Below, in pieces: positions 25,287 through 61,539 of a stretch of 64,000 nt of DNA; within the stretch, counting starts at the first letter, position 1, and the number at the start of each line of letters is the position of its first letter. Origin of the DNA: Candidatus Gastranaerophilales bacterium (GTDB lineage Bacteria > Cyanobacteriota > Vampirovibrionia > Gastranaerophilales > Gastranaerophilaceae); the NCBI GenBank assembly GCA_944324455.1, contig CALUWJ010000002.1, positions 1-64,000 on the forward strand, written 5' to 3'. The notes beneath the pieces were generated by a model, which was not told the DNA's origin, searched no databases, and saw only the letters and a list, made by a program, of their open reading frames with translations. The translations under genes were made by a program, and so were the position numbers.

Positions 25287-26186
25287 ATGTCAGTAGTTAT
25301 TAACACTAACGTGGATTCTATTAAAATCCAATCACTTTTGTCTAATTCAACAAATGGTTTAGCACAAGCCATGGAGAGAATGTCTTCAGGTTTGAAAGTA
25401 AATTCAGCAAAAGATGATGCTGCAGGTACCGTAATTTCTGCTCGTATGCAAGTGCAATTAGATGGTAACAAAACTGCACAAAACAACATTCAAAACGGTA
25501 ATGCTATGTTATCTACTGTTGAAGGTAACCTTGATGTAGTTCAAGATAACTTATCAAGAATTCGTGACTTGACTCTTCAAGCTAAAAACGGCACTTATTC
25601 AGAAGAAGAAATTCAAGCAATGCAAGATGAAGTTGCTGAACGTATGGCTGAAATTGACCGTATTTCAACATCATCTAAATATTCTTCATTATCTTTATTT
25701 AATGATGAAAATTTGCAAGATAATGGTGTAACATTGCAGGTTGGTGCTGATTATACAGAAGATAACACAATTTTAGCTGATGGTGAAATATTTGGAAAAG
25801 TTACTTTCTCAGCTTTAACAGGTATGAATACTTTTGATTTAACAGCTATGACAAATGCAGATCCTCAAACACCGGCTGGTCCTGATCAAGCAGAAGTTCC
25901 TGCTGCAGGTACATTCTCTGAAGCTGTTTTAAAATTAGATGAAGCTATTGATGATATTACAAGCAGAAAATCTAAAATTGGTTCTACTCAAAACCGTTTG
26001 GAATCAGCTCTTGATACTTTAACAATACAATACGAAAACTTATCAAGTGCTAAATCTATAATCACAGATGCCGATATTGCTTCTGAAGCTTCAAACTTTA
26101 CTCAACAACAAATACTTCAACAAGTATCAACATCTTTGTTAGCTCAAGCAAACCAAGCACCATCAATTGCATTAAGCTTAGTATAA
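25287..26186 (+). CDS. fliC: Flagellin
   Basis: 299 residues from the ATG at 25287, which has GAAAGGAG 7 nt upstream; upstream in-frame codons have no such site. The D0/D1 ends are conserved: N-terminal VINTNVDSIKIQSLLSNST and MSSGLKVNSAKDDAAG, C-terminal ITDADIASEASNFTQQQILQQVSTSLLAQANQAP. The variable middle is only about 60 residues, so the filament would be thin-surfaced with little D2/D3. The D1 stretch LSRIRDLTLQAKNGT resembles the region bound by TLR5. Exported by the machinery encoded at 11020-16086 and chaperoned by FliS (61057). Strong terminator follows. Confidence 0.97.
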   Translation: MSVVINTNVDSIKIQSLLSNSTNGLAQAMERMSSGLKVNSAKDDAAGTVISARMQVQLDGNKTAQNNIQNGNAMLSTVEGNLDVVQDNLSRIRDLTLQAKNGTYSEEEIQAMQDEVAERMAEIDRISTSSKYSSLSLFNDENLQDNGVTLQVGADYTEDNTILADGEIFGKVTFSALTGMNTFDLTAMTNADPQTPAGPDQAEVPAAGTFSEAVLKLDEAIDDITSRKSKIGSTQNRLESALDTLTIQYENLSSAKSIITDADIASEASNFTQQQILQQVSTSLLAQANQAPSIALSLV

Positions 26187-53632: not shown

Positions 53633-54046
53633 TTTATATTCAGTTGTCTGATGGAATTAATTATAAATATATTTATAATTATATTTATTATCATGCGCAA
53701 AATTTTATTGATATGCACAAATAAAAAAAATGTGTCAAATTTTATTAAGAAATGTAAACTCAAATATTATTAAAAATCAATAATGTTCAGTATATTTATT
53801 AAAATAATTATTAAAAAATATCTTCTAAATCAAATAATGTAAGACAAACAATAAAAAAAATGGTAATATAGCAAAGCAGTGATTAAAAGTACTGATTAAT
53901 GTGAAAATAAATTTATAAAATATATATGTATTAAATATCATTCGTAACAAATTTTAAAAATTAACAACAAATATGGCAATTATTTTGAAAAAAAATATTT
54001 TATAAAAATATAGGTAATAGTGTGTAAATGTTATTGGAGGAAATCA
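53633..54046 (+). promoter_or_regulatory. AT-rich intergenic region and leader of the HEAT-repeat gene
   Basis: 414 bp without a credible gene, very AT-rich. A perfect 24-bp palindrome lies at 53658-53681. The last 20 bases contain GGAGG at 54036-54040, a strong ribosome-binding site 6 nt before the ATG. Promoter not resolved. I saw no DnaA boxes. Confidence 0.5.
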
Positions 54047-54910
54047 ATGACAATTAGTGTGAACAATCGCAAAAAAACAAGCAAAAAGTCTTTTGATGAA
54101 TTAGTAAATGATTTAAAAACTTCTAATTCTGAAAAAGTTAGATATAATGCTGCCAGAATACTTGGCGAAATGGGCGATTTTAATGCTGTTGAACCTTTAA
54201 TTGAAGTATTAAAAAATGATAAAAACGGTTCAGTTCGTTTGTATGCAGCTCGTGCATTAGGTGAACTTGGTGATACTACTGCTACTGAACCACTTATTGA
54301 ATCTTTAAGATTAGATAGAAACGTTGATGTTCGTGTTCGTGCAGCTCGTGCTTTGGGTCGTCTTGGTGGTGAAGTTGTAGTTGAACCCCTTGTAGAAGCG
54401 CTAAACGATGAAAACCCTCAAGTTTGTATTACTGCAACAGAAGCTTTAATTGAAATTGGTGATGTTGCTACTGATGCTTTAATTGCTTCGCTTGATCATG
54501 AGAAAGTTAATGTACGTTGTGACGCTACAAGAGCACTAGGTGAAATTGGAAACCCAAAATGTGTTGATAAAATTATCAATATGTTAAAAGATGAATGGGT
54601 TAATGTTAGAATTTATGCCGTAACTTCACTAGGTAAATTGAACGACAGAAAAGCTGTTCCAGGTTTAATAGAAGTTATGAAGAATGAAAAAGAAAATGAT
54701 TTAGTTCGTGCGGGTGCAGCTGCTGCTCTTGGTGTTTTACGCGATCAAAGAGCTTTACTTCCTTTGCGTGAATTAATTATTAATGCTGAAGAACTTGGTG
54801 AATTAGAAGATACTGCTTTAAAATCATTCAAAAAAATTATGGCTGCAAATTGGGAAGCTATGCAAAGTGCTCAAGGCACCCAAGCCATTAAAAAGCCAAG
54901 TTTCTTTTAA
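54047..54910 (+). CDS. PBS-lyase-type HEAT-repeat protein
   Basis: 287 residues from the ATG at 54047 (GGAGG 6 nt upstream; an ATG at 54020 has no site). About seven HEAT-like repeats with VRxxAARALGxLGD spacing of about 31 residues, e.g. VRYNAARILGEMGD, VRLYAARALGELGD, VRVRAARALGRLGG, then NVRIYAVTSLGKLND. No lyase catalytic domain. Codon use (many CGT, GGT, GTT) is more biased than in neighbours. A strong terminator follows. Similar repeats occur in phycobilin lyases of Cyanobacteria, where they bind partners; here the partner is unknown. Likely abundant. Confidence 0.88.
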   Translation: MTISVNNRKKTSKKSFDELVNDLKTSNSEKVRYNAARILGEMGDFNAVEPLIEVLKNDKNGSVRLYAARALGELGDTTATEPLIESLRLDRNVDVRVRAARALGRLGGEVVVEPLVEALNDENPQVCITATEALIEIGDVATDALIASLDHEKVNVRCDATRALGEIGNPKCVDKIINMLKDEWVNVRIYAVTSLGKLNDRKAVPGLIEVMKNEKENDLVRAGAAAALGVLRDQRALLPLRELIINAEELGELEDTALKSFKKIMAANWEAMQSAQGTQAIKKPSFF

Positions 54911-54931
54911 TTCTATATAAAATTAATCATT

Positions 54932-54958
54932 AAAAAAGCCCTGACAAAGGGCTTTTTT
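54932..54958. terminator. Bidirectional terminator
   Basis: A 10-bp stem (54932-54941 with 54949-54958), 7-nt loop, six A on one side and six T on the other. It separates the HEAT-repeat gene and the small exported-protein gene. Confidence 0.9.
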
Positions 54959-54976
54959 AATGTATTTATTATTTAG

Positions 54977-55264
54977 CTAAATTCTATTGTGCCAAACGCC
55001 GCCTTGTCTATCTATGATAGCATCATAAAATGACCATAATCTAAATACACCTGTTAAACCTAGAACTGCGTGAGTAATGTTTTTTTCTGCGGTTTGTCCG
55101 TTTATCGCTTGTCCGATTCCGGGCCAAACTAATAAGGAGCACAATGAAGCACCAACACTTCTTGCTGAAACATGTCCATCTGTACCGTGCGTGCCTGCTG
55201 CAAATACGGGGGTAGCCAGTGACAATAGCACACTAAGTGCCATAATTGATAAAATCTTTTTCAT
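54977..55264 (-). CDS. Small exported/membrane protein, 95 aa
   Basis: Signal peptide (about 1-22, ending VFA). The rest has a Gly-rich hydrophobic segment (LCSLLVWPGIGQAINGQ) and a second hydrophobic helix (LGLTGVFRLWSFYDAII), a pattern similar to small TM2-type membrane proteins. A perfect AGGAGG lies 5 nt before the ATG. Function unknown. Confidence 0.6.
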   Translation of the reverse strand: MKKILSIMALSVLLSLATPVFAAGTHGTDGHVSARSVGASLCSLLVWPGIGQAINGQTAEKNITHAVLGLTGVFRLWSFYDAIIDRQGGVWHNRI

Positions 55265-60644: not shown

Positions 60645-61055
60645 ATGGGGCTTGATGGAATTTCAATAAATCAGCTGAGAGTCACTCCAGAATACAATTC
60701 ATCCGAACTAAACAATGTAAATAATCTTAATGCTCAAAATGATGTTAAGATTGTTGATGGTTTATCAGAAGGACAAAAGATTGATCCGGATGAGGAAAAA
60801 CATCATGAAAATGCATCGCAAGATTTTAATCAGAGTGAAAACGAAAATGAAACAGATGTAAAAGAGGATGTAGTTAAGCATGATTTTTCTCAAAGTGACA
60901 AGTATAAACTCGAGATAAATGAGGATACAAATGATATAATAATAATAGAAAAACAAACGAATGAAGTAATTGAAAAAATAAATTCTAAAGAGCTATCTAA
61001 GTTAGTACTTTATCTTGCTAATTCTCAAGGGACCATTGTAAATAGGAAATTTTAG
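60645..61055 (+). CDS. flaG: FlaG family flagellar protein
   Basis: 136 residues. The C-terminal 65 residues match the FlaG pattern (YKLEINEDTNDIIIIEKQTNEVIEKI, then a conserved helix). The N-terminal half is acidic and poorly conserved. FlaG is associated with filament length and cap assembly in other bacteria. TATAAT at 60619-60624 is a candidate -10. First gene of flaG-fliS-fliT-like; one base separates it from fliS. Confidence 0.85.
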   Translation: MGLDGISINQLRVTPEYNSSELNNVNNLNAQNDVKIVDGLSEGQKIDPDEEKHHENASQDFNQSENENETDVKEDVVKHDFSQSDKYKLEINEDTNDIIIIEKQTNEVIEKINSKELSKLVLYLANSQGTIVNRKF

Positions 61056-61056
61056 T

Positions 61057-61539
61057 ATGAACCAGTATATTAAACAATATCAAAAATCCAGTATTGAAAC
61101 GGCATCTCGCGAACAAATATTAATTATGCTTTATGATGGCGCTATTCAGTTTCTAAATAAAGCTAAAGTTTCAATGCAGAATAAGCAAATTGAGCAAACA
61201 CATAACAATTTAATGGGTGCTCAAAATATTATTCAAGAGTTTATTAATTCAATGGATAGAGAAGTTGCTCCTCAGCTGGCAGAAAATCTAATAAGCCTTT
61301 ATGAATATTTTATAAGACGTTTGGTCTATGCAAATGTTAAAAAACAAATTGAACCTATTGATGAAGTTTTAAAATATTTAAAAAGTTTAAAAGCAACTTG
61401 GGAAAAAGCAATTGAGTTGGCGCAAAAAGAACAAGTTCAAGCATTAAAAGAATCTTCATCTGATTATTATGATAAGTATGATGAAGATAACGATGAAGAA
61501 GATGACGAAGAAGATGATGAAGATGATGAGGACGAATAA
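61057..61539 (+). CDS. fliS: Flagellin export chaperone FliS with acidic tail
   Basis: 160 residues. The four-helix FliS core (about 1-128) is clear: REQILIMLYDGAIQFLNKA near the N-terminus and a conserved central segment. About 25 extra C-terminal residues are almost only Asp and Glu, with two Tyr, which is not part of the usual ~130-residue FliS. The tail codons contain the GAGG that could serve the next gene. Binds flagellin monomers before export. Confidence 0.95.
   Translation: MNQYIKQYQKSSIETASREQILIMLYDGAIQFLNKAKVSMQNKQIEQTHNNLMGAQNIIQEFINSMDREVAPQLAENLISLYEYFIRRLVYANVKKQIEPIDEVLKYLKSLKATWEKAIELAQKEQVQALKESSSDYYDKYDEDNDEEDDEEDDEDDEDE

Follow-up and report, generated by a model that had tools for sequence, protein, structure and literature searches.

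A conserved HEAT-repeat protein of Gastranaerophilales, predicted to be abundant, whose leader appears to retain a minimal start-stop frame

Introduction

What does a PBS-type HEAT-repeat protein do in a non-photosynthetic relative of Cyanobacteria, and how is its expression set? The question is raised by a gene in a stretch of 64,000 nt (the window) from a genome of Candidatus Gastranaerophilales (1.76 Mb in 40 contigs, 99.4% complete). The original prediction, made from the letters of the window, described a highly expressed HEAT-repeat protein of unknown role. It also took the host to be a non-photosynthetic relative of Cyanobacteria, rightly so according to the titles of related loci, and the close named relatives of the locus are metagenome-assembled Candidatus Gastranaerophilales. 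Its statement on the role likewise holds. Among the titles listed, none from the Melainabacteria/Gastranaerophilales literature concerned the protein or its leader, and none was a proteome of Vampirovibrionia. The conservation of the protein and the elements of its leader are additions to that prediction; of the two, the leader offers the greater novelty and is easier to test. The features are collected in Table 1.

Table 1. Features of the HEAT-repeat gene and its flanks (positions in the window)
Feature	Positions	Strand	Details and basis
Promoter-like element	53841..53869	+	AAGACA (53841-53846), 17 nt ending TGn, TAATAT (53864-53869); conservation
Predicted 5' leader, ~170 nt	53876..54046	+	start site inferred from promoter; 3' part 53941-54046 conserved
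GTG-TAA start-stop pair	54022..54027	+	24/24 same-genus leaders; only weak AGG-type Shine-Dalgarno (SD) sequence upstream
Predicted hairpin UGUUAUUG/CAAUGACA	54029..54052	+	SD mostly in loop, start codon in 3' arm
Shine-Dalgarno GGAGG	54036..54040	+	sequence; 6 nt before ATG
HEAT-repeat alpha-solenoid protein (CDS)	54047..54910	+	287 aa, 15 predicted helices, 8 repeats
First codons, conserved at the DNA level (Ser4 AGT, Val5 GTG)	54047..54064	+	codon counts
Intrinsic-terminator-like hairpin	54928..54962	both	15 pairs, 5 G-C

Results

The protein is predicted to be an alpha-solenoid with an invariant face

The protein sequence matched the Pfam families HEAT_2 (8.2e-52, 173.9 bits against a gathering score of 27.7) and HEAT_PBS (1.9e-41, 136.2 bits against 20.9, in 7 stretches), both above their gathering scores. 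The AlphaFold model, built with 34 aligned sequences, had a mean pLDDT of 90.6, so that a solenoid of helix pairs is predicted with high confidence. The best solved match was the alphaRep protein 4zv6_A (Foldseek E 2.1e-14; Z 28.4, rmsd 5.1, 265 aligned residues, 43% identity), and the other rows of the structure comparison (importin alpha, Vac8, Integrator and others) were general solenoids. No enzymatic domain was found in the protein, and an anti-phage role was rejected, as only HEAT-containing models matched. The same genome encodes a second, divergent HEAT protein of 310 aa (L143:10935-11867), and most surveyed relatives have a second frame of about 300-340 codons that matches at 25-45%.

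In alphaRep libraries each repeat is varied at six positions (18, 19, 22, 23, 26 and 30; PMC3754942). Via the aligned alphaRep sequences, these were placed at registers -6, -5, -2, -1, +2 and +6 around the helix-B alanine. Among 122 orthologs, 12 of them from the class level and with the non-ortholog L194 left out, 32 of the 42 residues at these registers in repeats 1-7 were invariant; in helix A and the loops, 35 of 112 positions were. The other helix-B positions were about as conserved as the binding-face registers (42 of 63 invariant), which weighs against reading the face as frozen by binding, since helix B of HEAT repeats is conserved for structural reasons too. The residues at register -5 (K, S, D, Q, N, N and L by repeat) and at register -1 (N, Y, R, T, D, Y and G) were each invariant and yet differ between most repeats, so mere repeat consensus does not explain them. 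Cys127 and Cys158, which lie on adjacent repeats at or beside the binding-face registers, were invariant in 122/122 orthologs. The frozen face suggests that one conserved partner may be held there.

The protein is conserved about like core ribosomal machinery

Judged by sequence identity, orthologs occur across the whole order, and some sister families have them as well. The first survey found an ortholog of at least 76% identity in 53 of the 57 order-level genomes and in all 42 order-level genomes with a completeness of 90% or more and a contamination of 5% or less, a count that leaves out one class-level genome matched only in part, at 39%. In the class survey (194 genomes), 98 order-level genomes held an ortholog, with no order-level genome among the no-match rows listed, and 17 more genomes, from families f9, f14 and f15, held one at 64-73%; four further matches of at most 41% were not counted as orthologs. 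The phylum survey (292 genomes) gave an ortholog in 130 of the 131 order-level genomes among those listed. No ortholog was found at E<=1e-25 in G375, a same-family genome that is 96% complete, and in the phylum's other classes no match exceeded 52%, 8 genomes matching partially at 34-52%.

Judged by identity, the protein is conserved about as strongly as core ribosomal machinery. It was more conserved than ribosomal protein L2 (gene located by family search) in 26/26 genomes, than GroEL in 21/28 and than EF-G in 16/27, with no L2 found in 2 of the 28 genomes and no EF-G ortholog in 1; the comparison favours the HEAT protein somewhat, because its variable C-terminal tail often lies outside the aligned range. 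Median identities (%) of the HEAT protein and L2 were 86.5 and 79 in the family, 80 and 71.5 in the order, and 70 and 66 in the class.

In same-genus loci the HEAT proteins were 90-98% identical and the neighbour medians were 48-88%, single neighbours in the closest relatives reaching 98%. The neighbours change between genera, indicating that the HEAT gene is kept on its own. An operon partner was rejected, as no neighbour is kept outside the genus. One neighbour survey called the HEAT gene in 79 of 80 loci (not in L099); in another, a longer opposite-strand ORF was called in its place in L160, L161 and L175. Such long opposite-strand frames in these f9 loci, up to 300 aa, are probably a by-product of codon bias.

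Codon usage points to an abundant protein

Codon usage was compared over 419 genes from the window and 20 stretches of 20 kb (464 kb of the genome). The reference set consisted of 15 genes from one cluster, which we take to be ribosomal-protein genes. The HEAT gene ranked 8th by codon log-odds towards this set and 36th by plain CAI (0.711 vs a non-ribosomal median of 0.633, sd 0.063). Its codons bear out the CGT/GGT bias seen originally (CGT for 9 of 19 Arg, GGT for 13 of 17 Gly). Among its neighbours in the log-odds ranking are genes presumed to encode ribosomal proteins, a GTPase resembling elongation factor G, a flagellin and a DnaK-like protein. The original prediction had proposed such an analysis and named average codon adaptation as a result that would speak against it; within the sample the gene is not average, so this objection falls away, and high expression is supported as a prediction from sequence. 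The protein is probably abundant.

The strong GGAGG site had been read as a further mark of abundance. The site is there, but it is unusual in this genome sample: GGAGG within 18 nt upstream occurs in only 18 of the 419 sampled genes and in none of the 15 ribosomal genes, and a site that is rare and missing from ribosomal genes is by itself no sign of high expression.

The sample held other codon-adapted genes. L157:17941-18408 and L141:16258-16785 encode proteins that start with MGW(I/V)(S/T)L and have no Pfam match above cut-off, possibly an abundant unknown family. L153:2531-2893 (33rd of 419) encodes a 120-aa protein with a sub-threshold HEAT match.

The gene has its own promoter-like element, leader and terminator-like hairpin

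The TG form of the promoter-like element was present in 24/24 same-genus leaders, 27/75 other same-family-type leaders and 1/34 order- or class-level leaders, groups defined by identity to the window protein, and in 5/665 shuffles. The promoter block accompanies the HEAT gene despite different genus-level neighbours (L057, L065, L067, L072, L088). A conserved intergenic block at 53741-53880, bigger than the promoter core, accompanies the gene within the genus. The long leader of the original prediction is supported: 446 nt separate the gene from the upstream tRNA, and from the position of the promoter-like element the leader is predicted to measure about 170 nt, its 3' part being 75-100% conserved within the genus. 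An Rfam search returned nothing above threshold except the upstream tRNA.

The predicted hairpin around the Shine-Dalgarno sequence was found in 57/84 same-family-type leaders, compared with 24/231 other genes and 18% of 830 shuffles; outside f1 it occurred in only 4/32 leaders. The 121-nt window leader folds no better than shuffles (z -1.02), and the z-scores of all three leaders folded were not significant (-1.02, 0.69 and 0.70). In genes of the MTISVN/MSISVN type, codon 4 was AGT in 102/102 and codon 5 was GTG in 93/102; later in the same genes, AGT made up 80 of 1135 Ser codons and GTG 58 of 2555 Val codons. Codons 4-5 are thus nearly fixed as AGT GTG although GTG is a rare Val codon, and in f1 leaders AGTGTG recurs before the Shine-Dalgarno sequence as well.

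Downstream, the strong terminator described originally corresponds to the terminator-like hairpin of Table 1, which can be read on both strands and is therefore shared with a convergent 95-aa gene (54977-55264, - strand). That gene has a signal-peptide-like start and weak DUF6488 similarity and is kept in part of the genus.

The leader seems to keep a start codon followed directly by a stop codon

In f9, f15, f2, f3 and f4, the leaders carry a start codon and then directly a stop codon 32-42 nt upstream of the gene, preceded at 5-12 nt by an SD-like sequence, mostly GGAGG. In f9, f15, f2 and part of f3 and f4 a strong Shine-Dalgarno sequence lies 5-8 nt before the element, and in f2 the pair holds one whole inserted codon, ATG-TCG-TAA. 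At L166, the true start lies 62 codons upstream of the first-called start and is preceded by AAGGAG..ATGTAACG. A start-stop with a Shine-Dalgarno sequence was missing in L165 and in all four f14 leaders.

An RTG-stop in -80..-13 occurred in 104 of 132 unique leaders (one of them from the non-ortholog L194), vs a mean of 36 and a maximum of 46 in 40 dinucleotide shuffles, counts that are not independent since the genomes and orthologs are related. In the sample from the window's own genome, with the HEAT gene left out, 15 of 186 other leaders had an RTG-stop in -60..-13. A start-stop with a Shine-Dalgarno sequence at 3-9 nt was found in 14/36 HEAT leaders but in none of 180 other leaders from those loci; in the window genus the Shine-Dalgarno sequence is only weak. 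Of 12 genomes searched for the exact pattern GGAGG-N4-9-ATGTAACG, 3 had it, and only at the HEAT gene.

At least one leader with a plain RTG-stop in -55..-15 was found in 30 of 41 genera, f2 and g42 being scored as lacking it; the 11 genera without one include all of f6 and f14. The forms were GTG-TAG (30), ATG-TAA (26), GTG-TAA (25), ATG-TAG (18), GTG-TGA (17) and ATG-TGA (10). The base preceding TGT-stop was mostly G or A (G 72, A 54, T 9, C 2), which fits the expectation for a start codon. These leader sequences suggest that in several families the HEAT gene has retained a minimal start-stop frame.

Discussion

We give about an even chance to the following account: the HEAT protein would be an abundant cytosolic alpha-solenoid of 8 PBS-type repeats dedicated, as a scaffold or as an assembly chaperone, to a single conserved housekeeping partner that is probably abundant too, with its expression set by a dedicated leader. 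The partner would sit on the face that the second helices form with their N-terminal halves. That it is a housekeeping protein is suggested by the persistence of the HEAT gene regardless of flagella, IscA or any given neighbour. In the leader, the minimal start-stop frame just upstream of the main Shine-Dalgarno sequence would most likely load or park ribosomes at the main start, by termination-reinitiation or by protecting the mRNA. Several results count against this account: the CAI rank is only 36 of 419, G375 lacks an ortholog, EF-G is more conserved than the HEAT protein in 6 of 8 same-family genomes, the Shine-Dalgarno sequence before GTG-TAA is weak in the window genus, 11 of 41 genera have no plain start-stop, and none of the three leader folding z-scores is significant.

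Other roles were weighed against the scaffold. A service to the flagellum or chemotaxis appears extremely improbable. The ORFs at 60645-61539, 6 kb downstream, which we take to be flaG- and fliS-like, would fit it, as would the codon adaptation of a flagellin-like ORF at 25287 (7th of 419); the occurrence of the genes does not match, however, and the link was rejected: flagellin was found in 51/194 class genomes vs a HEAT ortholog of at least 64% in 115/194, the HEAT-bearing G033, G065 and G077 have no flagellin, and f10 has flagellin and no HEAT match among the rows listed. Very improbable, too, is that the protein is a relative of phycobilin lyases or of phycobilisome-degradation proteins (CpcE/CpcF/NblB type), inherited from a photosynthetic ancestor and still handling a tetrapyrrole or its carrier protein. 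CpcE, NblB and CpcF were its top NCBIfam matches and CpcE/CpcF (5n3u) was among the fold matches (chain A E 1.9e-8; chain B Z 18.9, rmsd 1.8, 152 aligned), a fold that is common to many HEAT proteins and so not specific. However, the scores were far below the curated cut-offs (CpcE 96.7 of 330 bits, CpcF 79.1 of 220, NblB 82.4 of 300), the Phycobilisome family PF00502 was found in 0/29 genomes by a search that was positive in Synechococcus elongatus, the best relatives in the phylum's other classes match only part of the protein, at 52% or less, and designed alphaRep proteins fit better. The kinship with phycobilisome proteins that the original prediction had raised was therefore rejected, and the name "PBS lyase HEAT" reflects the repeat consensus only. 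A somewhat less improbable, still doubtful role is that of an IaiH-like partner of an Fe-S carrier, in which Cys127 and Cys158, invariant and on neighbouring repeats, would help to hold a cluster or a thiol partner. Cyanobacterial IaiH, a HEAT protein, stabilises the IscA cluster (PMC7058544), and the window carries a DUF1858 redox-disulfide gene upstream of the HEAT gene. Against this, the DUF1858 gene is not beside the HEAT gene outside the genus, and the IscA family PF01521 was found in 0/19 order-level genomes, the window's included, and in 10/10 class-level genomes, by a search of imperfect sensitivity whose control missed Synechococcus elongatus; an IscA/IaiH role within the order is disfavoured. 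The same PF01521 counts suggest a loss of IscA in Gastranaerophilales.

The leader element also has a second reading, which we consider possible but not probable: a site on DNA or RNA bound by a regulator, perhaps the HEAT protein itself, with the RTG-stop arising by chance. The palindrome ATGTAACGGTTACAT formed by the f9 element in several members and the repeated AGTGTG of f1 speak for such a site. Several observations speak against it, however: the palindrome does not extend beyond f9 and f15, each of the three stop codons is used and the start may be ATG or GTG, the strong Shine-Dalgarno sequence of the families named above stands 5-8 nt before the element, and the insertion in f2 is a whole codon. 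On the start-stop reading, we tentatively suggest that a pair led by a Shine-Dalgarno sequence and kept class-wide through changes of start, stop, spacing and one codon might serve as dedicated translational control of the HEAT scaffold; it could sense the state of initiation, termination or recycling, set the dose and possibly give feedback from the scaffold.

A protein that evolves as slowly as L2 across an order of gut bacteria points to a core process of these non-photosynthetic relatives of Cyanobacteria, and the frozen face shows where to seek its partner. Should the start-stop leader prove functional, bacteria would have an equivalent of the eukaryotic start-stop upstream frames, kept class-wide at one gene.

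The protein is best classed as a new, lineage-specific HEAT scaffold family. It shares the repeat consensus and solenoid fold of alphaRep binders (PDB 4zv6, 4xl5, 3ltj) at 42-43% identity over most of its length, and the same registers mark the binding face (PMC3754942); alphaRep proteins, however, are artificial and their binding positions are varied per target, whereas those of the HEAT protein are frozen over a bacterial class. With CpcE/CpcF and NblB it has PBS-type HEAT repeats in common, and with CpcE/CpcF a fold match, but it misses their cut-offs widely and its genomes are without phycobiliproteins. Like IaiH of Synechocystis (PMC7058544), it would be a HEAT protein of the phylum that acts as the partner of another protein, but IscA was not found in the order-level genomes searched. 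For the leader, the nearest parallels are in E. coli, where published work reports a GUGUGA start-stop site with termination-reinitiation at narQ (PMC9841429) and an influence of 5'-terminal AUGs of SD-led mRNAs on downstream expression (PMC4965119). Putative start-stop sites are also reported in Campylobacter (PMC11955535), and start-stop upstream frames are covered in a reinitiation review (PMC5972666). As in the two E. coli cases, a start codon is followed immediately by a stop near the main start, and their GUGUG/AUGUG context (PMC9841429, PMC4965119) is present in f1 leaders too. The start-stop of narQ overlaps the gene's own start codon, whereas the pair in the HEAT leaders lies 25-42 nt upstream, has its own Shine-Dalgarno sequence in several families and is kept over a class.
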